Shown in pieces: positions 8,043-41,965 of a stretch of 41,965 nucleotides of DNA. The notes beneath the pieces were generated by a model, which worked only from the letters and a program-made list of their open reading frames with translations, did not search any database and had not been told where the DNA came from. The position numbers and the translations under genes are program-made. The number at the start of each line of letters is the position of its first letter. Position 1 is the stretch's first letter. This DNA is from a virus, in the IMG/VR virus record IMGVR_UViG_3300017963_000419, positions 1-41,965 of that record, one strand, 5' to 3'.

Positions 8043-8706
8043 GTTTGCCCCTCCACAATTCTGGGCTGACAAAATCCTTGACAGCCTCGTCATTCCATTT
8101 CAGCCCGAGCCCCTCAATCACTCCCCGGATCTCCGAGAAGTCACCCTCAACAAACTTGGTGGGCCAAACCTCAACCATATTCACGCTCGGGTCCTCTCTC
8201 ATCTCGTCAAAACGCTTCTTGTGGTGGTCAATCCACCCCTGCCATCCCTCGGGCTTGCGATATGCCCGCATGAATCCGGTCCTCATACAACTGTAGATGA
8301 CGTCATCATCCTTGCGCCTGACCACGATCCACTTTGCTTCCGGGAAAGCCTTGTGCCATGTAGGCCACACCAGACAGAGTTTGGCCCCTTTGTAGTACCA
8401 CGGGCCGCTCCGATAGCCCTGAAACTTCATGATCTGTTCAACCTTGCTCCGGAGATTGCCGAGTGGGAGCAGGTGGTTCAACTCCGGGAGGGGCTTTTGC
8501 CCAAGGGGATCTGCACCACAAAGCATCATGTAGGGCTTCACCAGATTGTCCCGGATCTCCCTGTTTTCAAAAAAGCCCTTCTTGTTGGCTCGGCCTCCAC
8601 CCATGACCAGCCTTCCCCCGAAAGCCCCGCAATGGTCTATGATCCCAGCTGTCATACTGGTCCCGGATCTCGCACAGCCTGTTATCAAAATTGGGGCCTC
8701 CATCAT
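8020..8706 (-). CDS. Sulfotransferase-like P-loop protein
   Basis: A 228-residue protein. Near the N-terminus, APILITGCARSGTSMTAGI (about residues 4-22) matches the 5'-phosphosulfate-binding loop of PAPS-dependent sulfotransferases. A later WIVVRRKDDDVIYSCMR fits the 3'-phosphate-binding region (Arg and Ser). A C-terminal sulfotransferase P-loop element (RGKHGQ) may be present. Two ATGs in tandem follow GGAGGAGGTGCT; 8706 was taken. It overlaps the GT-like gene by 4 nt (ATGA) and the adaptor gene by 23 nt, so it is translated with virion genes. The substrate is unknown; sulfation of a virion or host-surface glycan is an inference. Confidence 0.75.
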   Translation of the reverse strand: MMEAPILITGCARSGTSMTAGIIDHCGAFGGRLVMGGGRANKKGFFENREIRDNLVKPYMMLCGADPLGQKPLPELNHLLPLGNLRSKVEQIMKFQGYRSGPWYYKGAKLCLVWPTWHKAFPEAKWIVVRRKDDDVIYSCMRTGFMRAYRKPEGWQGWIDHHKKRFDEMREDPSVNMVEVWPTKFVEGDFSEIRGVIEGLGLKWNDEAVKDFVSPELWRGKHGQSNSK

Positions 8707-9350
8707 AGCACCTCCTCCAATTTCACCTTTGGCCACAGGTCCATAGCCGAGTCAGGGTTGCAGTTCAGGACCTCGACATCAGGCCGCTTTTCCTCCAGCT
8801 CATTCCTGAGATAGCGGCCCTGACTCATGAACCGGGGATATGCCCCCGGGTTGGGTGAGCTGATCTCGTTCACATGCCAATTAGCTTCCCCTGACTCCTC
8901 ATCGATCTTCATGTCAAAGCCGAGGAGACACACCCGGGTTGCCCCCAGCTGTACCGCCAAACAGATCCCCGACATGCCTGTGTTGTTAAACCATCCCAAC
9001 TCCCCGGGCTTCTCTCCCAGCCTCCGGATCTTGCGGCGCATCCACTTGACCCTTTGATTCTGTCCCGGTTGATTGGTAATCCCGACATGAGTGGCAGTTG
9101 AATAGCGCATATCCCTGCGGTGTCTGGAGTGCCAGCACATATCCCCAAAAATGTTATAGTCAACCCAAGGGCCGAGCCTGTAGGCATCGTTGACCCCCAC
9201 AACCTTCTTGTTGGAGATGAGGTCCCAGTCAAACTCACGCAAGCTGGGACCTCCTCCAATCACAAACACAGTTTGTCCGGGCCATACTCTGGGAGGTGTC
9301 CAGAATACTGATGGATCAACATCTCGGCCCTGCCAAACACGTGACATCAT
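8703..9350 (-). CDS. GT42 sialyltransferase/MptE (DUF115)-like protein
   Basis: A 215-residue protein. A Rossmann-type nucleotide-binding segment reads TVFVIGGGPSLREFDWDLI (about residues 27-45), then VVGVNDAYRLGPWVDYNIFG. The GxGPSL signature is shared by GT42 sialyltransferases and MptE/DUF115 proteins. Further conserved-looking parts are WFNNTGMSGICLAVQLGA and VCLLGFDMK. It is shorter than typical enzymes of either family. Its start (ATGATG 9350) overlaps the stop of the preceding gene, and its end overlaps the sulfotransferase-like gene, so the two form a translational unit. I infer a sugar or nucleotide-transfer role but cannot tell which. Confidence 0.65.
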   Translation of the reverse strand: MMSRVWQGRDVDPSVFWTPPRVWPGQTVFVIGGGPSLREFDWDLISNKKVVGVNDAYRLGPWVDYNIFGDMCWHSRHRRDMRYSTATHVGITNQPGQNQRVKWMRRKIRRLGEKPGELGWFNNTGMSGICLAVQLGATRVCLLGFDMKIDEESGEANWHVNEISSPNPGAYPRFMSQGRYLRNELEEKRPDVEVLNCNPDSAMDLWPKVKLEEVL

Positions 9351-30180: not shown

Positions 30181-30429
30181 ATGCCGAGAACCAAGATGCC
30201 TGTGGACACGGATCTCCCGGACCCGATCCCAGCTGGAACAAAGATAGTGACCAAGTCAGGCATGCGAGGGATCGTGGACCCCACCAACAAAGAGGACAGG
30301 TGGGGGTATGATGTGTACAAGGTGTTCCTGCCCCGGCAGGAGATAAATGGATGGTGGTACCCGGACTGGGTGCTGTATTACACGAAACAGGAAATGGATG
30401 AAGCAGGAGTGGAGGTTGATATATCATGA
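30181..30429 (+). CDS. Small protein (82 residues), unknown function
   Basis: ATG 30181 follows GGAGTACAGA directly. It contains IPAGTKIVTKSGMRGIVDPT, a small beta-barrel-like start, then a Trp-rich NGWWYPDWVLYYTKQEMDEA. Its stop overlaps the next start. The function is unknown; it may be an SH3-like DNA- or protein-binding domain. Confidence 0.72.
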   Translation: MPRTKMPVDTDLPDPIPAGTKIVTKSGMRGIVDPTNKEDRWGYDVYKVFLPRQEINGWWYPDWVLYYTKQEMDEAGVEVDIS

Positions 30430-31307
30430 AACAGATGTTTGTACCAAAGCAGTTCAGAGCGGCCACGCTGGCAATGATCGAGCAGGCCAATGACATAATC
30501 GAGGACTACATGCGGATGGGCTATGAGCTCACCCTGCGACAGCTGTACTATCAGTTTGTTGCCCGGGATCTCCTCCCCAACAGTGACAAAAGCTATAACA
30601 AGCTGGGGGAGACAATCTCAAATGCCAGGCTAGCCGGGATGGTGGACTGGGATGCGATCCGGGACAGGACCCGCTTCACCCGGGCTCTGACCCACTGGGA
30701 TGGCCCGGGACAGATCGTGGAAGCGGCGGCAAACTCATACAGACGTGATCACTGGGAGGGCCAGACCTATTACGCAGAGGCATGGGTGGAGAAGGATGCC
30801 CTGATTGACGTGATCCAGAGGGCTTCCGAGGGAGCAGACATCACCTGCTTCTCATGCCGGGGCTATGTCAGCCAGACGGCCATGTATGAGGCCGCACGCA
30901 GATTCAAGTATCAGATCCGGGAGGACCGCAAGTGCGTCCTGTTCCACCTCGGTGACCACGATCCCTCTGGGATTGATATGACCCGGGACATACAGGACAG
31001 GCTGTCCACCTTTGGGGCTGATGTCGAGGTCCGGAGGCTAGCCCTGAACATGGATCAGGTCCAGCAGTACGGGCCACCGCCCAACCCTGCCAAGCTGACC
31101 GATTCACGCTGTGGCGACTACATTGCTGAGTACGGGTATGAAAGCTGGGAATTGGATGCGCTGGAGCCGCCAGTGCTTGTCCAGCTGATACGGGATGAGG
31201 TGGCCACGATCAAGGACCAGCCCGCATGGGATGCGGTGTTGGAGAGGGAAGCCGAGGAAAAGGAGGCCCTCAGGGAAGCCGCTGATGACATGCACGAGAG
31301 GTTTTGA
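30426..31307 (+). CDS. Topo VI-A/Spo11-like protein with TOPRIM motif
   Basis: A 293-residue protein. LTLRQLYYQFVARDLL (Tyr41/Tyr42) resembles the catalytic-tyrosine helix of the 5Y-CAP domain in topoisomerase VI A/Spo11, followed by NKLGETISNARLAGMVDWDA, a winged-helix pattern. The TOPRIM-type acidic motif is FHLGDHDPSGIDM (about residues 172-184). It is smaller than TopVI-A and no B subunit is nearby. It lies ATGA-coupled before the primase gene. Such proteins occur in phages without known function; DNA nicking or relaxation at replication is an inference. Confidence 0.75.
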   Translation: MKQMFVPKQFRAATLAMIEQANDIIEDYMRMGYELTLRQLYYQFVARDLLPNSDKSYNKLGETISNARLAGMVDWDAIRDRTRFTRALTHWDGPGQIVEAAANSYRRDHWEGQTYYAEAWVEKDALIDVIQRASEGADITCFSCRGYVSQTAMYEAARRFKYQIREDRKCVLFHLGDHDPSGIDMTRDIQDRLSTFGADVEVRRLALNMDQVQQYGPPPNPAKLTDSRCGDYIAEYGYESWELDALEPPVLVQLIRDEVATIKDQPAWDAVLEREAEEKEALREAADDMHERF

Positions 31308-33282: not shown

Positions 33283-33737
33283 GCGTGGTGAGAGGATGGA
33301 CGTGTCAGGACTGTTTGAGGAAATACCGGGATGGGGACAAGACAACCTTCCCCATCACCATATACCCCAACCCCGCAGACATACACTGCAAGGGGAAGCC
33401 AGCCTGTGTACAGCTGGAGATCACCGAGGAGGATCAGGTGGAGTTGGGACAGGATCGGCTCCGGGACAACCTGATGAAGGACTACAGACTGATGAGCCGG
33501 GATTACACCCCAGAGTTGTTGGACAAGGTGGAGGAGATCCTGAAGGCCCATCTCATGATGGCGTGGCAGTGGGTTAACAGGGCCGTGATGGACATCGATG
33601 GCACCCACACGGTGATCCTCGACTATCCAATCAAATCCCCTTCTCTGGACGTGTACGACAATCTGACAGAGTTGATCAAATATCTCAAGAAAAAGCTGGA
33701 GAGTACAGATGGCGAGGGTGAAGCGCAAGAAGGTTGA
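33279..33737 (+). CDS. Small zinc-finger-like protein before helicase (152 residues)
   Basis: ATG 33279 overlaps the preceding stop. WTCQDCLRKY and HCKGKPACVQLEI give two Cys pairs (near residues 9, 12, 37 and 43) that could bind zinc. The rest is helical (ELLDKVEEILKAHLMMAWQW) with a C-terminal coiled coil. It overlaps the helicase start by 29 nt. It may be a helicase loader or partner (inference). Confidence 0.7.
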   Translation: MSVVRGWTCQDCLRKYRDGDKTTFPITIYPNPADIHCKGKPACVQLEITEEDQVELGQDRLRDNLMKDYRLMSRDYTPELLDKVEEILKAHLMMAWQWVNRAVMDIDGTHTVILDYPIKSPSLDVYDNLTELIKYLKKKLESTDGEGEAQEG

Positions 33738-35268
33738 GAACAGTGTCGAGAGGAGAATGGCCACTGGCATGATTGTCAGCACCCGGGCTCTGCGGGAGAT
33801 CCAGACCCTGTACAACGAGGATCTGGTGGAGATCCCCTATGTGCGCCGGATAGCCAACTGGTGTCTGGAGTATTTCAGCCGCTATCAGAGAGCCCCGGGA
33901 AAGCACATACAGGACATATTCAACAGTCAGGTCCGCAAGGGGATGGATGAGGATGAGGCAGACCTGATCAGTGATTTCCTTGACGAGATCTCCGAGGAGT
34001 ATGCCCGGGCCGATCACTTCAACGTCCCATACCTGCTGGATGAGGTGGAGGAGCGGCTCAAGGCCATCAGCCTCCAACATCTGGCCGAGGACATACAAGC
34101 CCATCTGTCCAATGGAAGCACTCTGGAGGCCGAGGGCCTGCTGGGGCAATATGACAGGATCTCCCGGCCCTCCTCCAATGGGGTCAACCCACTGGATGAT
34201 CCAGAGGTGGTTCAAGCCGCTTTTGAATCCCGGGCCGAGCCCCTGTTCACTCTCCCGGGAGCCGCAGGGGATCTCCTGAATGACCAGCTGGTCCGGGGAG
34301 GCTTTCTGGGCTTCATGGGAAAGGCCAAGATTGGCAAGACAGCGATGTTGCTTGAGATGGTCCACCGGAGCCTCCTGCACCGCAACAACACAGCATTCTT
34401 CTCAGCCGGGGATGAGACACAGGAGGATATGACAGTCAGGCACCATGTACGCTTGGCAGGAAAGAGCAATCAGGGGAGGTACTGTGGGAAGCTGTGGGTG
34501 CCAGTCCTTGATTGCGAATACAACCAAGATAACACCTGCAACCGGAAGCACCGGGAGGGTGACACCGGACTGGAGGGTGCGACCTCGATGGAGGATGCCC
34601 CGGATGACTACAAGCCCTGTTCATATTGTGCCAAGCATGATCGGCCCCGCTTCCGGGGAGCCATGTGGTACAGGCGCAGAGATCCCGTGACCCCTCTGAC
34701 ATGGAGAGAGGGGCTCAAGATCGGCCAGAGGTTTATGAAGCGGCTGAAGGGCCGTCAGTTCAAGCTTGTGACCACTCCCAACAGCACTCTGACAGTACAG
34801 GATATTGAGGCCCATCTGGATGCTTGGGAGCACTTTGATGGATGGGTCCCGGATGTCATTGTGATTGACTATGCGGACATCATGGCCCCGGAGCCCGAGG
34901 ACCGCAGGAAGGATACCCGGGACCAACAGAATGGGACGTGGAAAGCCCTGCGCAGACTATCCCAGAAGCGGCATGTGCTGGTCATCACGGCTACCCAAGC
35001 GGATGCTGAAAGCTATGACACAGCCAGACTCAAGCTCAAAAACTTCTCTGAGTGCCGGCAGAAGTATGATCACGTGACCGGGATGCTGGGGCTCAACCAG
35101 ACTGATGAAGAGAAGCGGCGTGGCATCATGAGAGTGGGTTGGATGCTCCTGCGCCACGGTGAGTTTGACCCGAGCCGGATGACTGTCTTGCTCCAATGTC
35201 TCCAACAGGGCAGGCCGCTGATCGGATCTTTTCCCCTGCGGTTCAAGAAGAAAGACAAAAAGGCATAG
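33709..35268 (+). CDS. DnaB-like replicative helicase with Cys-rich insertion
   Basis: A 519-residue protein; ATG 33709 follows GGAGAGTACAG inside the preceding gene. The N-terminal 150 residues are helical like a DnaB N-domain. The RecA-like core has GFMGKAKIGKTAMLLEM (Walker A, about 202-218), AFFSAGDETQEDM, VIVIDYADIMAPE (Walker B, about 383) and VLVITATQAD. Between Walker A and B lies an insertion with VLDCEYNQDNTCNRKH and PCSYCAKHDRPRF: four or more Cys and His (about 268-310), a probable zinc site absent from ordinary DnaB. It unwinds DNA at the fork with the primase at 31307. Confidence 0.87.
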   Translation: MARVKRKKVENSVERRMATGMIVSTRALREIQTLYNEDLVEIPYVRRIANWCLEYFSRYQRAPGKHIQDIFNSQVRKGMDEDEADLISDFLDEISEEYARADHFNVPYLLDEVEERLKAISLQHLAEDIQAHLSNGSTLEAEGLLGQYDRISRPSSNGVNPLDDPEVVQAAFESRAEPLFTLPGAAGDLLNDQLVRGGFLGFMGKAKIGKTAMLLEMVHRSLLHRNNTAFFSAGDETQEDMTVRHHVRLAGKSNQGRYCGKLWVPVLDCEYNQDNTCNRKHREGDTGLEGATSMEDAPDDYKPCSYCAKHDRPRFRGAMWYRRRDPVTPLTWREGLKIGQRFMKRLKGRQFKLVTTPNSTLTVQDIEAHLDAWEHFDGWVPDVIVIDYADIMAPEPEDRRKDTRDQQNGTWKALRRLSQKRHVLVITATQADAESYDTARLKLKNFSECRQKYDHVTGMLGLNQTDEEKRRGIMRVGWMLLRHGEFDPSRMTVLLQCLQQGRPLIGSFPLRFKKKDKKA

Positions 35269-35295
35269 CAGGATTGGATGGATCATTGTATAGTA
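35263..35295 (+). promoter_or_regulatory. Phage middle promoter, copy 2
   Basis: GCATAGCAGGAT (35263-35274, overlapping the helicase stop codon), 11 bp, then TTGTATAGTA (35286-35295). Box sequences and spacing equal those at 30130. It would drive the lysine-rich protein and the DUF362/radical SAM genes. Confidence 0.7.
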
Positions 35296-35369
35296 GGTTG
35301 GATATGTTAAGTTGTTTGACAATTGAGTAGGTGAGCCAAGGTTGCTAACCAAGTGAAAGGAGGAAAACC

Positions 35370-36029
35370 ATGGCCAGAAAGACAACGACAGAGGGTGACG
35401 AGGGGATCCAGACCGAGAGACTGATTGCGGCGGCACGGGACATGAACACCGTGATGGGCCTCGATCCGGCTATTGGCACGGATGACGAGGGCAATGATAT
35501 CATTGAAGATTTGCCCGATGAGGACCTGACAGCCGCTATCAAGAATGAGGCTGACGAGGTACTGGCGAAAGACAAACTTGAGGATGACACGTGGGCAGTC
35601 CTTGAGGAATTGGGCGTGGCTGAGAAGGCCATAGCCGAGCGCAACAAGAAAGCCCCGGCAAAGGAGGAGAAAGTGGCAGACAAAAAGAAAGCCGCAAAAG
35701 ACAAGAAGGCTCCCGCCAAGGGCAAGGACAAGAAAGCCCCGGCCAAGGAGGAGAAAAAGGCAAAGGCTCCCAAGAAGGAAAGCAAGCCCAAGGAGCCCAA
35801 GGGACCCCGCTACAGCAGAGCCCGGGCCGTGGCCGATGCGCTGGGCAAGGTCAAAAAGACCTTCACCGTGCAGGAGTTGGCTGAGAAGGCTGATGAGCTG
35901 TACAAGGACGTCACTGGCGGGTCCAACGTCAAGGAGGCCCTTGCGGTTGCCAAGATCGCAGTGGGTGTCCTCGATCAGCTGGGCACGATTCAGGCCGCTG
36001 AGGAAAAGAACACCTACACCAAGGCATAA
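35370..36029 (+). CDS. Lysine/alanine-rich DNA-binding-like protein (219 residues)
   Basis: Residues 1-85 are acidic and helical (AARDMNTVMGLDPAIGTDDE). About 90-150 are repeats of KKAPAK-like units as in histone H1 or bacterial H1-like tails. The C-terminal 70 residues (RARAVADALGKVKKTFTVQE then ELYKDVTGGSNVKEALAVAK) are a helical domain of winged-helix size. ATG 35370 has AAGGAGG upstream and a leader of about 70 nt from the candidate promoter. It is probably a nucleoid-type protein; it is first in the metabolic island operon. Confidence 0.72.
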   Translation: MARKTTTEGDEGIQTERLIAAARDMNTVMGLDPAIGTDDEGNDIIEDLPDEDLTAAIKNEADEVLAKDKLEDDTWAVLEELGVAEKAIAERNKKAPAKEEKVADKKKAAKDKKAPAKGKDKKAPAKEEKKAKAPKKESKPKEPKGPRYSRARAVADALGKVKKTFTVQELAEKADELYKDVTGGSNVKEALAVAKIAVGVLDQLGTIQAAEEKNTYTKA

Positions 36030-36031
36030 TC

Positions 36032-36886
36032 ATGTCTTGGGTCCGGTGCGCTGACTACAAGCGGGACACGCTTCAGAGCATCCCCGATCACATCTGGTCG
36101 GGGATGCCTGACGTGTCGGGCAAGCGGGTGTTCATAAAGCCCAATTTGGTCTGTCCCCCTACCCGTTGGGACAAGGCCTCCACCACATCGGTGAACGTGG
36201 TCCGGCTCGTGATCGAGCGGCTACAGGATGCCGGGGCCTCCTCCATCGTTGTAGGTGACTGCGGCTTCAAGGATCAGTGGGATGCCACGCTGGAGATCTC
36301 CGGCTATGGCAAGCTGTCCAAGCAGTACGGGGTGGAGTTGATCGGCCTCCAGTGCGGCCCCAATTTTCACCGCTTCACCCTCCACCGTCTGAACAAGGGT
36401 GAATACATGTCTTTGTATGGGGCCAAAATATCCGATTTTGTATTGGGGTGCGACACTGTTTTCAACCTGCCCAAGCTCAAGGTCCACTCCATGGCTCTGG
36501 TCACCGGGGCTATCAAGAACATGATGGGCACGATGGCCCAGAAGGGCTCCATGCATCCCAAGGCCAATATCAAGATCCTTCACAAGCGGCTCCGGGACCT
36601 GTACTACATCATGAGCCCTCTGGTTGGATTTGTCCTGATGGATGGGGTCTATGGATCGGAGTACACCGAGCAATACGGGGTCCCGGTTCACTCGGGTCTG
36701 CTCATATCCGGGACAGACATGTGGGAGGTGGATTGTCTGGCGGCTTCTGCCATGGATATCTGCCACGAGGATGTGCCCTATTTGACGTACATAGGCAGGG
36801 ACAAGGCTATAGACAGCCCTGACCTGATCGATGAATCTGCTGTCATCTCGTATGAAAGGCCGTTGGCATGGCGAAAGACAAAGTGA
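36032..36886 (+). CDS. DUF362 family protein
   Basis: A 284-residue protein. It has the DUF362 hallmarks KRVFIKPNLVCPPTRWDKA (about residues 31-49), VVRLVIERLQDAGASSIVVG, VFNLPKLKVHS, VTGAIKNMMGTMAQKG and a C-terminal LISGTDMWEVDCLAASAMD. It lacks the ferredoxin-like tail seen in some members. DUF362 proteins have no settled reaction. ATG 36032 stands 2 nt after the previous stop with only a weak SD, and the gene overlaps the radical SAM gene by 19 nt, so they are coupled. DUF362 is unexpected in a phage. Confidence 0.85.
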   Translation: MSWVRCADYKRDTLQSIPDHIWSGMPDVSGKRVFIKPNLVCPPTRWDKASTTSVNVVRLVIERLQDAGASSIVVGDCGFKDQWDATLEISGYGKLSKQYGVELIGLQCGPNFHRFTLHRLNKGEYMSLYGAKISDFVLGCDTVFNLPKLKVHSMALVTGAIKNMMGTMAQKGSMHPKANIKILHKRLRDLYYIMSPLVGFVLMDGVYGSEYTEQYGVPVHSGLLISGTDMWEVDCLAASAMDICHEDVPYLTYIGRDKAIDSPDLIDESAVISYERPLAWRKTK

Positions 36887-38052
36887 ATATCAGCAAGGCC
36901 AAGTTTGGTTCCATTGTAGGATGGCGGGGGGATAGCCTCTGCTGTCCACAGGCTTTCGGGGGAGATTGCTATGGGGGATGCAGTTGCGGGTGTTGGTGGT
37001 GCTTCTGTCGGGAGATGGAGGAGGAGATGTTCACCAAATACTACACTGGCTGGCACCGGGATCTCGTCAGGCCAGCTAGCCCGGAGGACTTCAAAAAGCT
37101 GTTCGACAAAATGCACTCTGACAAGCCCACCAAGAATTGGGAAGTCAAGTGCCTCCGGGAGGGCCTGCCCTTCAACATGGGCTCCAAGGCCGAGACATTC
37201 TGTTTGGAGGACCTGAATGACAGTGTAGTGATCCCAATTCTGGAGTTGTTCCGGGAGGCCGGGGTGCCTCTGATCCTTGAGACCAAAACCCATTATGTGG
37301 GGCTGGAGCGGTACATGGACGTGCTCAAGGATCTCGACTGCGCCGTGATCGTGGCAATCATGGGAGGATCGGACACGCTCAACTACAAGCTGGAGCCCGG
37401 GGTGCCTATGGCCTCGGCTCGGTGGTATCTCGTGGAACAGCTGAACAAGCGGGGGATCTGGACCGGGGTGCGGTGGGAGCCTGTCATGGCCACCATCAAC
37501 GACAAGCAGGCCATGTTTGAGCAATACGCTGAGATGTGTGTCAGGACCGGGGCCAAGCATGCCTCCATATTCAACTACAGGACCAGCCTGCCTCGGAGGG
37601 GCCAAGAGGAGTTTGAGAAGCGTGGCATCAACTACATCAGGATGCTGGAGGGCAATCTGGATGAGAAGTGGCGGCCCAAGGGACAGGCCCTGATCCAAGC
37701 CCTCAAGGACCGGGGTGTCAAAGTGTCCTCCCCTGACTTTGTGAACTTCCCCTTTGGGAATGCGTGCGAAAGCTGTTGTGGGGTAGATGGGCTGTTCAAG
37801 CCCTATCAGTTCACCTTTCAGCACGCCTGCAAACGGATCGAGGAGGAGGGCTCAGTGTGCTGGGATGATATGGAGGAGATCACCTTCAGAGAGCCCAAGG
37901 CCTATGAGCGGATGAAGGAGCACTGGAATGGCGGGGGGCAGTACTATTCACTGGACGACAGCCCCGAGATCAAGGTGCTGGACCGGGACAAGCAGGGCAT
38001 GAAGATATATGGCAGGAAAAACCCAGAGGAAAAGGAGGGGCTGATATGGTAG
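36868..38052 (+). CDS. Radical SAM protein 1 (SPL-like), Cys-rich
   Basis: A 394-residue protein. GDCYGGCSCGCWWCFC gives CX3CX2C as Cys38, Cys42 and Cys45, with extra Cys at 34, 40 and 47. The barrel shows LPFNMGSKAETFCLED, GVPLILETKTHY, CAVIVAIMGGSD and LEPGVPMASARWYLVEQL, matching spore photoproduct lyase-like radical SAM proteins. A C-terminal Cys group (NACESCCGVDG, then HACKRIEEEGSVCW) could hold an auxiliary Fe-S cluster. It overlaps the DUF362 gene and the next gene. The substrate is unknown; DNA photoproduct repair cannot be claimed. Confidence 0.8.
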   Translation: MAKDKVNISKAKFGSIVGWRGDSLCCPQAFGGDCYGGCSCGCWWCFCREMEEEMFTKYYTGWHRDLVRPASPEDFKKLFDKMHSDKPTKNWEVKCLREGLPFNMGSKAETFCLEDLNDSVVIPILELFREAGVPLILETKTHYVGLERYMDVLKDLDCAVIVAIMGGSDTLNYKLEPGVPMASARWYLVEQLNKRGIWTGVRWEPVMATINDKQAMFEQYAEMCVRTGAKHASIFNYRTSLPRRGQEEFEKRGINYIRMLEGNLDEKWRPKGQALIQALKDRGVKVSSPDFVNFPFGNACESCCGVDGLFKPYQFTFQHACKRIEEEGSVCWDDMEEITFREPKAYERMKEHWNGGGQYYSLDDSPEIKVLDRDKQGMKIYGRKNPEEKEGLIW

Positions 38053-38516
38053 CAGATGAGCATTGGATGTTGGGGCCACACAGATTGTCCTTCATCCCGG
38101 AGGACACACTGGAGATGAAGGCCGTGCCTGCGGCTCATGTAATCGAGTTGGTGGGGAAGGCTTGGCCGGGGGAGGCCGTGTTCATATCCCGGAAGCCCAT
38201 CAATCATGAGGCTCAATTGATACACAAGGAGACATGCGAGGTCATAGCCTCGTGGGGCTCCAACCGGGAGGCCTTCATACAGCTGTGGGAGGATGCCCGG
38301 GAGGGGAGGCCCCTGCTTCACTCTGAGAGCCTCCGGGTGGCGCAGTTTGGCGATTACAGGAAGGCCCAGCTGGCCTTGTTGGAGGACAAGATCAATCACA
38401 TACTGGCCGAGGGCCGGGAGTGGTTATTGGAGGGTGAAATGTTCCAGCTGACGCAGTCAGGGGTGGAGCTCAAAATGGTGATCAAAGAAGATGAAGCACC
38501 CGTGCCCTCTTCATGA
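38046..38516 (+). CDS. Small partner protein between the radical SAM genes (156 residues)
   Basis: ATG 38046 has GGAGGGG upstream and overlaps the radical SAM 1 stop by 7 nt. The sequence is beta-rich at first (HRLSFIPEDTLEMKAVPAAH, VFISRKPINHEAQLIHKE), then helical (REAFIQLWEDAREGRPLLH). No metal site is evident. By gene order it may be a substrate-binding partner of the radical SAM proteins (inference). Confidence 0.72.
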   Translation: MVADEHWMLGPHRLSFIPEDTLEMKAVPAAHVIELVGKAWPGEAVFISRKPINHEAQLIHKETCEVIASWGSNREAFIQLWEDAREGRPLLHSESLRVAQFGDYRKAQLALLEDKINHILAEGREWLLEGEMFQLTQSGVELKMVIKEDEAPVPSS

Positions 38517-38594
38517 CACGCTAACATGCCGCTTGACCATCCTCGGATATCATCTGAGGGTGCTCAAGTTGGCTATCCGGGAGGAGTTGCCGAG

Positions 38595-40004
38595 ATGGCT
38601 GAGATGGATTATTGGACGCTGAGAAAGAATGTCAGCAAGATCGTGCCCCGCATGACACAGCTATTCCGGGAGCGCAAGAAGGTCCGGGCTGTCAGAGAGA
38701 AGGGCCGCAAGAGCGGCTACAAGCAGTACAATCTCCGGACCCGGGAGTGGGTCAAACAGGAGCGGCTACTGAACACCGAGGAGGTCAACAGCTTTGCGGA
38801 GATCTCTGTCAGGGCTCAGGCCTGTCCGATGCCCCTCAACCTCGATGTCTGGGATGGACTGATCTGTCCATTTGCTTGTAAGTATTGCTATGCCAATGCC
38901 TTCCGGGCTAGCCTGTACACGGCCTTTTTCGACAACAGCAAGACAATGGGCTTCCGGCACTGCAACCCAAGCTATTACAAGGGTGAGCTGGACAAGCTGA
39001 TGAAGCACCGGGGGAAGGACCCGCAGAGCGTGCCACAGGACGTGCCCCGGGCTATCGCAATGGAGATCCCCATGAGGCTCGGGATCAGGTTTGAAGACTT
39101 CCTGCGCAATGAGGAAAAGGAGGGGATCAGCTTGGAGTTGTTGCGCTATCTAGCCCAAGAGGACTATCCAGTGATGATCAATACCAAATCGGATCTCGTG
39201 GGCCATGAGGACTATCTGGAGGCACTGGGCTCCAACGAGGGGAGGACAGCTGTCCACGTCACGGTGATCTCCTCCAATGACCAGATCCTCAAGACACTGG
39301 AGCCGGGAGCCCCGCCATTTGACAAGCGGGTGGAAGCCTGCGAAAGGCTGGCCGGGGCCGGGGTGCGACCTGTGGCCCGGATCGAGCCATATTTGGTGTT
39401 CCTGTGCGACAGCCCGGATGAGGTGGAGGAGTACATGGAGAGGATGTGGGAGGCCGGGGTGCGGCATATCACGTTTGATACATACAGCTACACCGCTCAC
39501 AACCCGGGGATCAGACAGGACTTCATCAACTGCGGGGTGGACTTTGAGCGGCTGTTTCTGCTGGGGTGCGACAGTCAGGGCCTCGGGAGCCTCCTGCTGG
39601 GCAAGTTTATGGAGTTGTTCCGGGAGAGGGGCTTCAGCTGTAGCACTTTCGATATTGGCAATGCGGCCTCCAATTCCCAGACCATCTGCTGTGAGGTTGG
39701 GGACTGGTTTCAGGGGGGATGGAATTATGGGTGCACGGTCATAGCGGCCCGATTCATCAAGAGCCGGGGAACACAGCCCACCCGCTGGAAGGATTTTGTT
39801 GAGCATGTCGAGGAGCATGGGGGCTTCCTGAGTGAGGCCCTGAGGATGGACGTTCACAGGCTCTGGAATGTCGAGGGCAACGAGGCCTATGCCTCCAACT
39901 GGTGTCAGGGGATCGAGCCTGTGGGGGCCGATGAGGATGGGATTGTCTGGCACTATCTGGAGGGGGATGACTTCCGGGAGCGGCTATTGGAGGAGTGTTT
40001 ATGA
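38595..40004 (+). CDS. Radical SAM protein 2
   Basis: A 469-residue protein; ATG 38595 was chosen for GGGAGGAG upstream, as the longer frame from 38526 has no SD. The cluster motif is ICPFACKYCYAN: Cys91, Cys95 and Cys98. MNLD-type context (PMPLNLDVWDGL) precedes it. The barrel has YPVMINTKSDLVGHEDYLEA, AVHVTVISSNDQILKTLEPG and VRPVARIEPYLVF, the SPL-like repertoire, and RHITFDTYSYTAHNPGI. The basic N-terminal 55 residues (RERKKVRAVREKGRKSGYK) suggest nucleic-acid contact. It is different in sequence from protein 1, so it is not a recent duplicate. Confidence 0.85.
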   Translation: MAEMDYWTLRKNVSKIVPRMTQLFRERKKVRAVREKGRKSGYKQYNLRTREWVKQERLLNTEEVNSFAEISVRAQACPMPLNLDVWDGLICPFACKYCYANAFRASLYTAFFDNSKTMGFRHCNPSYYKGELDKLMKHRGKDPQSVPQDVPRAIAMEIPMRLGIRFEDFLRNEEKEGISLELLRYLAQEDYPVMINTKSDLVGHEDYLEALGSNEGRTAVHVTVISSNDQILKTLEPGAPPFDKRVEACERLAGAGVRPVARIEPYLVFLCDSPDEVEEYMERMWEAGVRHITFDTYSYTAHNPGIRQDFINCGVDFERLFLLGCDSQGLGSLLLGKFMELFRERGFSCSTFDIGNAASNSQTICCEVGDWFQGGWNYGCTVIAARFIKSRGTQPTRWKDFVEHVEEHGGFLSEALRMDVHRLWNVEGNEAYASNWCQGIEPVGADEDGIVWHYLEGDDFRERLLEECL

Positions 40005-40303
40005 GTGAGGACCTGAAAGACATCAGTGACGGAATGAAGGTGGATTTCACCGAGTGCGCTGAGTGCGCCGCAAAGCCCGGGACCCCTTCCCTGTGTCCCA
40101 GCTGTATCGCCAACCGGGACATGATCTACACCCTCAAGGAGGCCGTGGTCAAGGGCTCCAAGGCCCTGCGCTTCATAGCCGGGGTGCTGGAGGAGGGAAC
40201 AGCCCGGGGAAGGCCAATGGACCTGATCCTGAAAGGTGACTGGGACAAGTGGTGGGAAAAGGTCAAGGCCTTCCGGGATATCATGGAGGGCCTACACCGA
40301 TGA
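40001..40303 (+). CDS. Small zinc-binding protein (100 residues)
   Basis: ATG 40001 follows GGAGGAGTGTTT and overlaps the radical SAM 2 stop by 4 nt. TECAECAAKPGTPSLCPSC gives Cys19-x2-Cys22 and Cys32-x2-Cys35, a zinc ribbon. The rest is helical (MIYTLKEAVVKGSKALRFI). It is coupled at both ends to neighbours. The function is unknown. Confidence 0.75.
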   Translation: MSEDLKDISDGMKVDFTECAECAAKPGTPSLCPSCIANRDMIYTLKEAVVKGSKALRFIAGVLEEGTARGRPMDLILKGDWDKWWEKVKAFRDIMEGLHR

Positions 40304-40491
40304 TAACAGACACTTCCAAGATGCCGTTTGGCAAGTACAGAGGCACCCCCATGTCCGAGGTCCCGGACAGCTACCTTGTTTGGTTCTATGGGCAGGATGA
40401 TGCCAAGGCTAGCCAGCCCGAGGTCTATCAGTACATTGTGGACAACGCCCATCTGTTCCCGGATCTGATCTTGAGGAGGGAGGACCGATGA
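40300..40491 (+). CDS. DUF3820 protein (63 residues)
   Basis: ATG 40300 overlaps the preceding stop (ATGA). KMPFGKYRGTPMSEVPDSYL followed by VWFYGQDDA is the DUF3820 signature, a small domain also found attached to exonucleases. The family function is unsettled; in phages it accompanies recombination or nuclease genes. Confidence 0.85.
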   Translation: MITDTSKMPFGKYRGTPMSEVPDSYLVWFYGQDDAKASQPEVYQYIVDNAHLFPDLILRREDR

Positions 40492-40703
40492 GCCAAGGAA
40501 CAGCCTGCCAGTGTCCTGAGAGAGAAAAGCCCGTCAAGGAGAGGGCTTGGGTGGTCTGGATGCGGAGATGCAACTACAGTGCTTTCAACGGCTACCATTA
40601 CACCCCCAGCGACTATTCCGCTGTCAAGTGTAGGGCTTGCGGAGCCAACTGGAGGACCAATGCTCAGTTTGTGGATGATTTGAAAGATGGAGAATTGAGA
40701 TGA
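40488..40703 (+). CDS. Small Cys-containing protein (71 residues)
   Basis: ATGA overlap with the DUF3820 gene. Cys28 (RRCNYSAFNGYHYTPSDYSA) and Cys48-x2-Cys51 (KCRACGANWRT) could form a zinc ribbon, with Cys7/Cys9 or His37 as further ligands. The function is unknown. Confidence 0.72.
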   Translation: MSQGTACQCPEREKPVKERAWVVWMRRCNYSAFNGYHYTPSDYSAVKCRACGANWRTNAQFVDDLKDGELR

Positions 40704-41005
40704 GCGGTGGATCTTTTGACTATTTGTGTCACAAGGAATTGGACTATTTCATGTGTACAGAGCGGGGTCTGGATGAGATGATTTGCGCTCTGGCAGAGTT
40801 GGGATATGCTGAGGATGCGGCTGTTGCCACCCAGCAATTCCTTCTGGACCTCCGGAAGGCCAAAGTCAGGCTGGAAGCATCCCTGTCTGATCTCCAGCCC
40901 GTATGGAAAGCAATTGAGTGGTGGAAGTCATGCGACACTTCCGAGGATGCGTTCAAGAAAGCACTAGCAAAGTGGAGAGGAGAAACAGATGAGTCAAGTG
41001 AGTAA
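40700..41005 (+). CDS. SGGSFDYLC-type conserved small phage protein (101 residues)
   Basis: The start MSGGSFDYLCHKELDYFM belongs to a widespread small family in phages and some bacteria. Helices follow (GLDEMICALAELGYAEDAAV, RLEASLSDLQPVWKAIEWW). ATGA overlap with the previous gene. The function is unknown. Confidence 0.8.
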   Translation: MSGGSFDYLCHKELDYFMCTERGLDEMICALAELGYAEDAAVATQQFLLDLRKAKVRLEASLSDLQPVWKAIEWWKSCDTSEDAFKKALAKWRGETDESSE

Positions 41006-41825
41006 CAGGGTGGAGGAGATCTTTGCCCACGCAGTGGCGATGGATCAGGCCGGGAGGCTCCGCAGTACCATTTACGTGATTGACCGGGAGGTGTACATCA
41101 TCAATCAGGACAACACGGTGTTCCTGCGGTTCAAGCTCAGGGAGAGTGAGAAGCCCTTTGAGGAGCCTGTCAGCTTCCGGGCCAATGACTATGACTCCCG
41201 GGCCTTCCGGGAGGAGGGTGGCAAGATTGTGTTTGAGACTGAGGCCAATGGCTTCATCCGGACCAAGACCTGCGGCACCCCAGACGCTGACCCGGAGGAG
41301 ATCCGGGACATGTTCAAGAAGTTCAAGCCCGTCAAGGTCAACAAGGTCAAGCTGAGCCGGGACATCCTCCCACTTCTGGAGGAGGGCCTGAGCCACATCG
41401 AGATCCGGGCCGAGGAGGGGGAGATCAAGTTTGTTCAGCGCAACATCTACTCGGGTGCGGTGATCGAGATCTCCCGGGCCGTTGACACTGGGGCTCTGGG
41501 GGTGGACAACCCCGATGAACTGGAGGAGGACTTTGGGCCGCTCGGCCTGCGCACAGGTGACTTCTCGGCCCTGTTTGCGTTCAATGATAATCTGGTGTTC
41601 ACCTTCCCACCCGAGGGGCAAGGTGACTACTGTTGTGTGAGAAGCAGGGACCCCAAAATGGCCATGGATGGGGTAGTGGCTTGTTGTGTGTATGATGAGC
41701 TGGGCCAGATCTCGGAGGTGAGTGATGGGAGGAAAGAGCAGAAAAAGCGGGGGAGTCAGCAAGGCTCTGATAAACAAACTGTCAAAGGGAAAGAACAAGT
41801 GCGGAAGCGGGTGCGCACCAAGTAA
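40989..41825 (+). CDS. Possible sliding-clamp-like protein (278 residues)
   Basis: ATG 40989 has GGAG upstream and overlaps the preceding gene. The protein appears to have two similar beta-rich halves: RFKLRESEKPFEEPVSFRAN to KIVFETEANGFIRTK, and VNKVKLSRDILPLLEEGLSH to DFSALFAFNDNLVFTFPPEG, ending near VVACCVYDELGQ. This layout recalls T4 gp45/PCNA-type clamps, but no diagnostic motif is visible. A Lys-rich disordered tail follows. It is equally possibly a protein of unknown family. Confidence 0.5.
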   Translation: MSQVSNRVEEIFAHAVAMDQAGRLRSTIYVIDREVYIINQDNTVFLRFKLRESEKPFEEPVSFRANDYDSRAFREEGGKIVFETEANGFIRTKTCGTPDADPEEIRDMFKKFKPVKVNKVKLSRDILPLLEEGLSHIEIRAEEGEIKFVQRNIYSGAVIEISRAVDTGALGVDNPDELEEDFGPLGLRTGDFSALFAFNDNLVFTFPPEGQGDYCCVRSRDPKMAMDGVVACCVYDELGQISEVSDGRKEQKKRGSQQGSDKQTVKGKEQVRKRVRTK

Positions 41826-41889
41826 CAAACAGAAGCGGGGGAAGGGATTTGATCTGCTATCTGAACAATCTGAAGGCGCAGGGGATTGA
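41725..41889 (+). CDS. Small basic protein overlapping the preceding gene (54 residues)
   Basis: ATG 41725 follows GGAGGTGAGTG, a strong SD, within the end of the 40989 gene. The product MGGKSRKSGGVSKALINKLS... is Lys/Gly/Ser-rich with two Cys (KCGSGCAPS). The frame overlaps the next gene. The function is unknown. Confidence 0.55.
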   Translation: MGGKSRKSGGVSKALINKLSKGKNKCGSGCAPSNKQKRGKGFDLLSEQSEGAGD

Positions 41890-41965
41890 CCCCAATTTCT
41901 GGTGCTCGGAGGAGTATGCCGGCAAGGCAGGCCTGATTGAGCGCAAGATCCGGGATGGCGGGACC
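41849..41965 (+). CDS. Partial gene at right edge
   Basis: The frame is open from TTG 41849 (after GGGGGAAGGGAT) to the window edge: ICYLNNLKAQGIDPNFWCSE, then EYAGKAGLIERKIRDGG. It is too short to assign. An upstream start in the same frame is possible. Third-position composition matches neighbouring genes. Confidence 0.5.
   Translation, partial: MICYLNNLKAQGIDPNFWCSEEYAGKAGLIERKIRDGGT

Follow-up and report, generated by a model that had tools for sequence, protein, structure and literature searches.

The virus record IMGVR_UViG_3300017963_000419 is a stretch of 41,965 bases, analysed here over its whole length and called the window, in which four plus-strand genes in a row encode a DUF362 protein, two radical S-adenosylmethionine (SAM) proteins, and a small protein. 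The DUF362 protein (36032-36886; 284 amino acids) is a member of PF04015, which it matches at 7.6e-36 with 124.5 bits against a gathering cut-off of 24. It is followed by rSAM_A, a radical SAM protein resembling spore photoproduct lyase (SPL) and of the subtype that we call type 1 (36868-38052), by the small protein (38046-38516), which has likely relatives in some other loci, and by rSAM_B, a second SPL-like protein (38595-40004). A preliminary description of the window had placed four open reading frames (ORFs) at these positions, and we confirm them all, along with the overlap of the first three: the DUF362 gene ends at 36886, beyond the rSAM_A start at 36868, and rSAM_A ends at 38052, beyond the start of the small gene at 38046. 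The rSAM_B ORF opens at 38526, but the start at 38595 is preferred, with GGAGGAG 8 bases upstream and relatives that start nearby. The middle promoter that had been suggested at 35263 was not recovered; a consensus scan of 33500-41965 gave two sites, both on the minus strand, versus 3.7 in shuffled sequences.

The four genes belong to a conserved phage module. We gathered loci by scanning IMG/VR with rSAM_B, DUF362, and rSAM_A, and 75 were labelled; these include neither the window nor two distant rSAM_B relatives that lack the module (L096 and L097; 21-23% identity). Near-identical contigs were kept in the sets (e.g., L025/L028, L054/L055, and L085-L087/L094), so counts refer to contigs, not to independent events. 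DnaB lies upstream in 56 of the 75 labelled loci (the remaining 19 have upstream DNA of any length), and rSAM_A stands between DnaB and rSAM_B in all 56, which places the gene order beyond chance. Among loci with more than 2.5 kb of downstream DNA, rSAM_B is followed by a clamp-like gene, g40989 in the window, in 62 of 64 cases and by a gene called c3 in 63 of 64; c3 lies just beyond the end of the window and is seen in a near-identical contig of 61,397 bases (L001/L007/L041) that extends it. The preliminary description had named two ways in which the grouping might mislead, random association of the genes and loss of the cluster-binding cysteines in close relatives. The neighbourhood is strongly conserved on both sides, with random association not seen, and the CX3CX2C cysteines are invariant among aligned relatives of rSAM_A (29/29) and rSAM_B (27/27). 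The limits that had been drawn, 36032 to 40004, enclose real genes, but the conserved unit extends past 40004 to the clamp-like gene (plus strand, 40989-41825) and c3.

The reciprocal DUF362 scan gave 11 loci, every one with rSAM_A type 1; with rSAM_A as the query, 70 loci were found, 64 of which were new to the set. Four of these 64 (L122, L159, L171, and L181) have no visible rSAM_B, and their DNA stops 0.02-2.1 kb past the rSAM_A match. In 50,697 phage records there was no match to rSAM_A type 1, rSAM_A type 2, or c3, and the matches to rSAM_B (two) and DUF362 (one) were faint and in faecal phages. A scan of bacterial genomes gave three contigs of metagenome-assembled genomes with the same phage genes aboard. 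Eighteen plasmid matches to rSAM_B were set aside, all being partial, weak, and to cellular radical SAM proteins.

rSAM_A and rSAM_B are SPL-like radical SAM paralogues whose profiles match at 99.8% over 340 columns, and a Cys-Cys motif in the C-terminal half is retained throughout both families. rSAM_B belongs to the radical SAM superfamily by its match to PF04055 (3.2e-9; 37.6 bits, cut-off 29.5) and has its CX3CX2C at 38865-38888 (Cys114, Cys118, and Cys121, numbered from 38526; plus strand, as is that of rSAM_A). rSAM_A scores under the Pfam radical SAM cut-off (13.8 bits), but it has the invariant CX3CX2C (36979-37002; Cys38, Cys42, and Cys45) and homology to rSAM_B. The Pfam cut-off for SPL was not reached by rSAM_B (12.8 against 27 bits), and no SPL match was listed for rSAM_A; nor did rSAM_B reach the curated cut-off of TIGR04470 (26.9 against 410 bits). 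PDB sequence searches with profiles of rSAM_A, rSAM_B, DUF362, and the M6-type radical SAM protein were likewise without a meaningful match. A few phages encode a further, more divergent radical SAM protein, their third (L059:11754-13265, L081, and L080:10571-11626). In L059 and L081 its gene lies between c3 and the clamp-like gene c4 (see below), and the L080 protein, which scored low (63.8 bits) for its label A1, was excluded from type 1.

Among the locus-wide protein families, rSAM_B is the most conserved. In pairwise comparisons of loci it is more alike than DnaB every time (857/857), and likewise than c3 (1171/1171), c4 (1076/1076), the primase (153/153), g40989 (1369/1371), a polymerase-region protein (427/432), a clamp loader-like protein (322/323), and rSAM_A type 2 (797/900). 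In three loci read closely, intein-like inserts split rSAM_B at its cluster cysteines: at Cys121 in L032:6643-9125 and L084:8001-9752, and at both Cys114 and Cys121 in L034:6352-9113. Inteins tend toward the active sites of important proteins. Group I introns were considered as the cause of the split rSAM_B genes and rejected, as seven loci gave no Rfam match. Inteins may also be contained in polymerase ORFs of 1161-1388 amino acids in L058, L068, and L071.

DUF362 had been presented as part of the core of a four-gene system; it is instead one of several exchangeable partners and marks an rSAM_A subtype. In the interval between DnaB and rSAM_B, DUF362 is present in 7 of 7 type 1 loci versus 0 of 49 type 2 loci. 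The corresponding figures are 0/7 versus 28/49 for a pyridoxal phosphate (PLP) enzyme, 0/7 versus 12/49 for an aldo/keto reductase (AKR), 0/7 versus 3/49 for a DAO-type flavoenzyme, and 1/7 versus 13/49 for a protein labelled MTc15. We also assembled a set of 24 whole records, 36-172 kb each, all linear and possibly fragmentary or incomplete, no completeness figure being given; 19 duplicate or fragmentary loci were dropped from the locus comparison used with it. DUF362 is found in eight of the 24, precisely the eight with rSAM_A type 1, and the PLP gene adjoins rSAM_A in 10. The trees were compared over 60 of the 65 loci that have rSAM_A: 49 of the 60 could be scored as PLP, AKR, or DUF362 (PLP together with AKR being scored as PLP), and 11 went uncounted. 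Partner state changes 4 times on the rSAM_A tree versus 13 times on the rSAM_B tree; the shuffled mean was 18.0 for both, and neither 4 nor 13 was reached in 200 shuffles. Thus, rSAM_A and its partner move together over a steadier rSAM_B backbone, and since 13 changes lie below all 200 shuffles, the rSAM_B core is not random with respect to the partner either. On a larger rSAM_B tree of 72 rows, rSAM_A type 1 takes six changes.

The partner enzymes are named with differing degrees of confidence. The AKR and the DAO-type flavoenzyme exceed their Pfam cut-offs, as do other cassette genes encoding TAGT, NAD epimerase, and amidoligase. The PLP enzyme scores 34.8 bits against a Pfam cut-off of 35, yet it matches PHROG 7093 at 2.7e-46. 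Methyltransferase-, glycosyltransferase-, and GNAT-like cassette proteins carry names given by eye or from weak matches (e.g., MTc45 at 24.7 versus 27 bits and the GNAT-like u14 at 15.1 versus 22 bits). The TAGT in L019 is 44% identical to an Aeromonas phage protein annotated as HMC glucosyltransferase, and glycosyltransferases of TET-associated type lie near the module in L006 (130 + 145 amino acids, split over two ORFs), L019, L051, and L071. A common theme unites the partner enzymes, whose families usually work on the alpha carbon, the amine, the hydroxyl, or the carboxylate of an acid.

In the window, the DUF362 partner is predicted to have the fold of LarA, a nickel-pincer enzyme. Its AlphaFold2 (AF2) model (mean predicted local distance difference test, pLDDT, 83) best matches LarA-family chains, with a Z score of 17.9 and a root-mean-square deviation (rmsd) of 3.2 over 221 residues for 6d6z, whereas the next unrelated fold scores 5.5. 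By title, entries 1-11 of this fold search are lactate or malate racemases or LarA-like, and the twelfth is 4nar, a Thermotoga protein. PMC11770544 places DUF362 and LarA in the same Pfam clan, CL0471, and sets out the roles of LarA residues His174, Lys184, and His200. In DUF362, His152, Lys162, and His175 (36485-36556, plus strand) do not vary in any of the eight sequences of the alignment, that of the window among them. His152 and Lys162 are 10 apart, as are His174 and Lys184 of LarA1, and His175 comes 13 further on, versus 16 for LarA1 His200. The comparison was made by eye, with LarA-like ORFs in L182 and L183. In hhalign, the sequence profiles of DUF362 and two LarA-like proteins do not align, so the likeness in spacing is unconfirmed and we treat use of a nickel-pincer cofactor as hypothetical. 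Judged by titles and abstract openings, none of the papers found on DUF362 concerns a phage; a LarA-like protein tied to a radical SAM partner gives DUF362 a functional context in viruses.

The partners of rSAM_A type 2 tie the module to known thymidine hypermodification. The cassette PLP enzyme shares 38% identity over 99% of its length with gp052 of the Pseudomonas phage M6, which adjoins gp053, an SPL-like radical SAM protein, in a locus that also holds ADDT, HMUDK, HMUDK_hel, and thymidylate synthase. We take the M6 radical SAM protein to be an isomerase and the M6 PLP enzyme a decarboxylase. By profile, the M6-type radical SAM protein is nearer to rSAM_A (98.1% over 265 columns) than to rSAM_B (78.9% over 119). 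The same PLP/radical SAM pair occurs with ADDT and kinase domains in the locus of phage Pam3, and the cassette flavoenzyme shares 27% identity over 85% with a flavoenzyme of phage PaMx11, whose gene lies beside ADDT and HMUDK_hel. In Pam3, an annotated topoisomerase VI gene lies just upstream of the PLP gene. The preliminary description knew of no described phage pathway combining DUF362 and radical SAM proteins, and this needs correction: in M6-type thymidine hypermodification, tailoring enzymes are already known alongside an SPL-like radical SAM protein. A paper by Lee et al. from 2021, "Pathways of thymidine hypermodification," reportedly describes how such genes are combined in viral metagenomes, and it might bear on the present system. 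By title and abstract opening, none of the papers listed on phages, radical SAM proteins, and hypermodification describes such a system. M6 DNA contains 5-NedU (PMC6449724), as does the DNA of Yuavirus phages (PMC11946847), and M6-type phages begin thymidine hypermodification with 5-hydroxymethyldeoxyuridine (hmdU), which is incorporated into DNA and then phosphorylated (PMC6449724).

The module sits among replication genes. The genes before it encode an SNF2 helicase, a sigma-factor-like protein, a member of the topoisomerase family, a primase, a DnaD-like loader, and the DnaB-type replicative helicase that is the left neighbour of the module (33709-35268, plus strand; PHROG 19, 2.7e-26), while terminase, portal, head, and tail genes occupy the opposite strand of the window. 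The unit is therefore part of a tailed-phage replication region. Farther right are the weakly clamp-like c4 (13.9 versus 27 bits), an exonuclease that carries a uracil-DNA-glycosylase domain, a family A polymerase, and c6, a clamp loader-like protein named by eye. Immediately ahead of the module lies c7, or K35370 (35370-36029, plus strand), which matches PHROG 5235, of unknown function, at 1.1e-6 and has no significant match in Pfam; by eye, it consists of a low-complexity Lys/Ala/Pro-rich stretch and then a small C-terminal domain. Members of family c7 occur in the DnaB-rSAM_B interval of 50 of the 56 loci. The small protein of the window matches a 140-amino-acid protein of L044 (blastp, E<=1e-5) that scores 18.5 bits against the small-protein profile; alone, the window protein scores 2.0 bits, which is not significant, and its assignment to a recognised family was rejected.

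Several genes of the region merit separate mention. Window positions 30426-31307 match PHROG 6247, DNA topoisomerase, at 1.1e-107, with no Pfam match. An odd gene on the minus strand of the head/tail region (8703-9350) matches a PHROG named alpha-2,3-sialyltransferase at 1.9e-29. In L023:9401-10579, an ORF that by eye resembles RtcB RNA ligase lies between rSAM_B and g40989. At L027:11697-12896, a uracil-DNA-glycosylase domain is fused to a 3'-5' exonuclease and adjoins the family A polymerase; this protein may act on modified or deaminated bases. An Rfam scan of the window gave no match.

The clamp-like gene bears directly on the substrate. The AF2 model of g40989 (pLDDT 87) matches PCNA chains at a Z score of 16.5 with an rmsd of 3.8 over 218 residues, which predicts a two-domain PCNA clamp fold; sequence searches of families gave no significant match. 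Because this gene adjoins rSAM_B, DNA at the fork is suggested as the substrate. The nearby c4 (L041:14961-15974) weakly matches the beta clamp of bacteria (0.049), and the phage may thus encode two clamps. We also viewed C-terminal tails and afterwards picked the pattern [LIMF][FW], which ends 22 of 112 putative DNA-acting enzymes (cassette and DNA-methyltransferase-like; shuffled mean 1.7, the rows being related), compared with 1/412 proteins of the replication region and 4/298 others. By family, it is found in rSAM_A type 1 (5/8; the window protein ends in EGLIW), rSAM_A type 2 (5/50), MTc15 (5/13), D12 (2/5), N4MT (3/22), and GTc38 (2/2), with 0/12 in four other families. Such tails resemble clamp-binding peptides.

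Altogether, the observed gene content and order, the co-segregation of rSAM_A with its partners, the homologies, and the predicted folds point to a system that probably carries out replication-coupled hypermodification of DNA bases in tailed phages, with a constant rSAM_B core and an exchangeable unit of rSAM_A and tailoring enzymes. The preliminary description had offered phage DNA, host tRNA, or a peptide as targets of a novel modification; a modification system is supported, and of the three targets the evidence favours DNA and disfavours tRNA and peptide. We consider DNA quite likely to be the substrate, and we infer thymine as the base, activation at its methyl group, the identity of the side chain, and an anti-restriction role. 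In the proposed mechanism, rSAM_B, aided by the clamp, would generate a base radical in newly replicated DNA, most likely on the thymine methyl by analogy with spore photoproduct lyase chemistry, thereby attaching or priming an acid side chain. rSAM_A would then make or rearrange the link to the side chain, its subtype fixing the later chemistry, which may be PLP decarboxylation, flavin oxidation with aldo/keto reduction, methylation, or glycosylation. In the phage of the window, DUF362 would act on the alpha carbon of a hydroxy-acid side chain in a LarA-like reaction. The c3 protein, weakly acyltransferase-like (19.7 versus 27.5 bits), may cap an amine. The likely benefit would be protection from host nucleases.

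Several findings weigh against this reading. Substrate and base are predictions drawn from genes, and the cofactor use of DUF362 is hypothetical. The window version has no PLP, flavin, or glycosyltransferase gene, and its link to DNA modification runs through its relatives, its position, and the clamp-like gene. No recognised tailoring enzyme is present in 9 of the 49 type 2 loci with DnaB, and the cassette names MTc15, GTc30, and GTc38 were given by eye, with no Pfam match. The coupling of rSAM_A to its partner may partly stem from physical linkage in recombination. The [LIMF][FW] tail ends only 2 of 74 rows of rSAM_B, the supposed clamp client, and 0 of 54 rows of PLP, AKR, FAD, and DUF362 proteins, so simple tail-mediated docking of rSAM_B is disfavoured. 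Lastly, enzymes of the known pathway are scarce. ADDT (PF18724), the amino acid:DNA transferase, and the two hmdU DNA kinase families PF18748 and PF18723 (HMUDK_hel and HMUDK) were each found in 0 of the 24 records by searches that were positive in M6, and thymidylate synthase (PF00303), the family to which the dUMP hydroxymethylase of the known pathway belongs, matched in three of the 24, one of them strongly, with none in the near-identical record of the window. Single absences prove little because the completeness of the records is not given; the joint absence is telling.

How, then, would the modification begin? In M6, hmdU is handled by kinase and transferase first, and the radical SAM and PLP steps follow. 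Searches did not turn up the enzymes of these first steps here, and nearly every locus has a clamp-like gene and a further radical SAM protein. It is simplest to suppose that rSAM_B stands in for the early M6 steps, probably through radical activation of a DNA base, and that rSAM_A and its partner perform the rest. We therefore put forward, tentatively and as a possibility that may well prove wrong, a route independent of hmdU, in which clamp-guided rSAM_B would take a hydrogen from the thymine methyl in replicated DNA and couple an amino or hydroxy acid, and the exchangeable rSAM_A and tailoring unit (here LarA-like, of nickel-pincer type) would build the final base. It is rather unlikely that the system is based on hmdU after all, with hmdU coming from the host or from unsequenced phage DNA and other enzymes replacing the kinase and transferase. 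The few thymidylate synthase matches and the possibly fragmentary linear records are compatible with such a supply, as is the search for TET/JBP as another source of hmdU, which gave 0/24 but had no positive control and no match anywhere and so is uninformative. The 0/24 counts for the transferase and both kinases, in records of this size, speak against it.

DNA repair, with rSAM_A and rSAM_B as SPL-like lyases that reverse thymine damage and their neighbours as accessories, is improbable. The weak matches to the SPL and PA0069/Rv2578c families, the replication location, and the annotation of the M6 counterpart as a DNA repair photolyase would fit, but repair has no need for exchangeable PLP, AKR, flavin, and DUF362 partners that track rSAM_A, the Pfam SPL score falls well short of its cut-off, and the M6 PLP/radical SAM locus serves base synthesis. 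Less probable still is modification of host tRNA or other RNA during infection: radical SAM, PLP, and aminoacyl-type transferases are known in RNA modification, and c3 is weakly like a lysyltransferase domain (5e-4; PDB 2hqy, 1.5e-4), but the module sits among helicase, clamp, and polymerase genes, its neighbour g40989 has a PCNA-fold model, and its PLP and flavin enzymes are homologous to those of DNA-hypermodification loci. Radical SAM proteins often act on peptides, and c7 and the small protein are encoded beside them, but a product like a ribosomally synthesized and post-translationally modified peptide, or a small metabolite, with either protein as substrate, is very improbable, since c7 is mostly 150-440 amino acids long, variable (median pairwise identity 23%), and by eye free of a repeated core peptide, and the DNA-modification homologies point elsewhere.

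We thus regard the module as a real phage system and a variant of phage DNA hypermodification, possibly with a new chemical entry step. If side chains are indeed put on ordinary DNA bases by radical chemistry, this would be a new principle of DNA modification, one that could provide new enzymes for DNA labelling and would predict unseen bases in uncultured phages. A slot that accepts several enzyme classes (PLP, aldo/keto reductase, flavoenzyme, DUF362, and epimerase) leads to directly testable structures. Among known systems, NCBIfam uses Radical SAM mobile pair B (TIGR04470) to name one of a radical SAM pair on mobile DNA, and rSAM_B matches it weakly. With the SPL and PA0069/Rv2578c families, the two proteins share the radical SAM core, the CX3CX2C, and weak profile matches; however, they miss the curated cut-offs widely (e.g., 48.6 versus 430 bits) and differ in their invariant Cys-Cys motif in the C-terminal half and in forming a conserved pair in phages. 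DUF362 resembles the LarA superfamily in its predicted fold and, by eye, in its His-Lys-His spacing, but it is shorter, lacks a sequence-level match, and is tied to a radical SAM protein. The closest comparison is with M6 and the Pseudanabaena phage Pam3, which likewise have a PLP enzyme beside an SPL-like radical SAM gene near replication genes, and with the Pseudomonas phage PaMx11, which has a DAO-type flavoenzyme near such genes. In contrast to all three, the present system has two radical SAM proteins, a clamp-like protein of predicted PCNA fold, c3, and DUF362, and in the records surveyed ADDT and hmdU kinase were not found and thymidylate synthase was found in only three.

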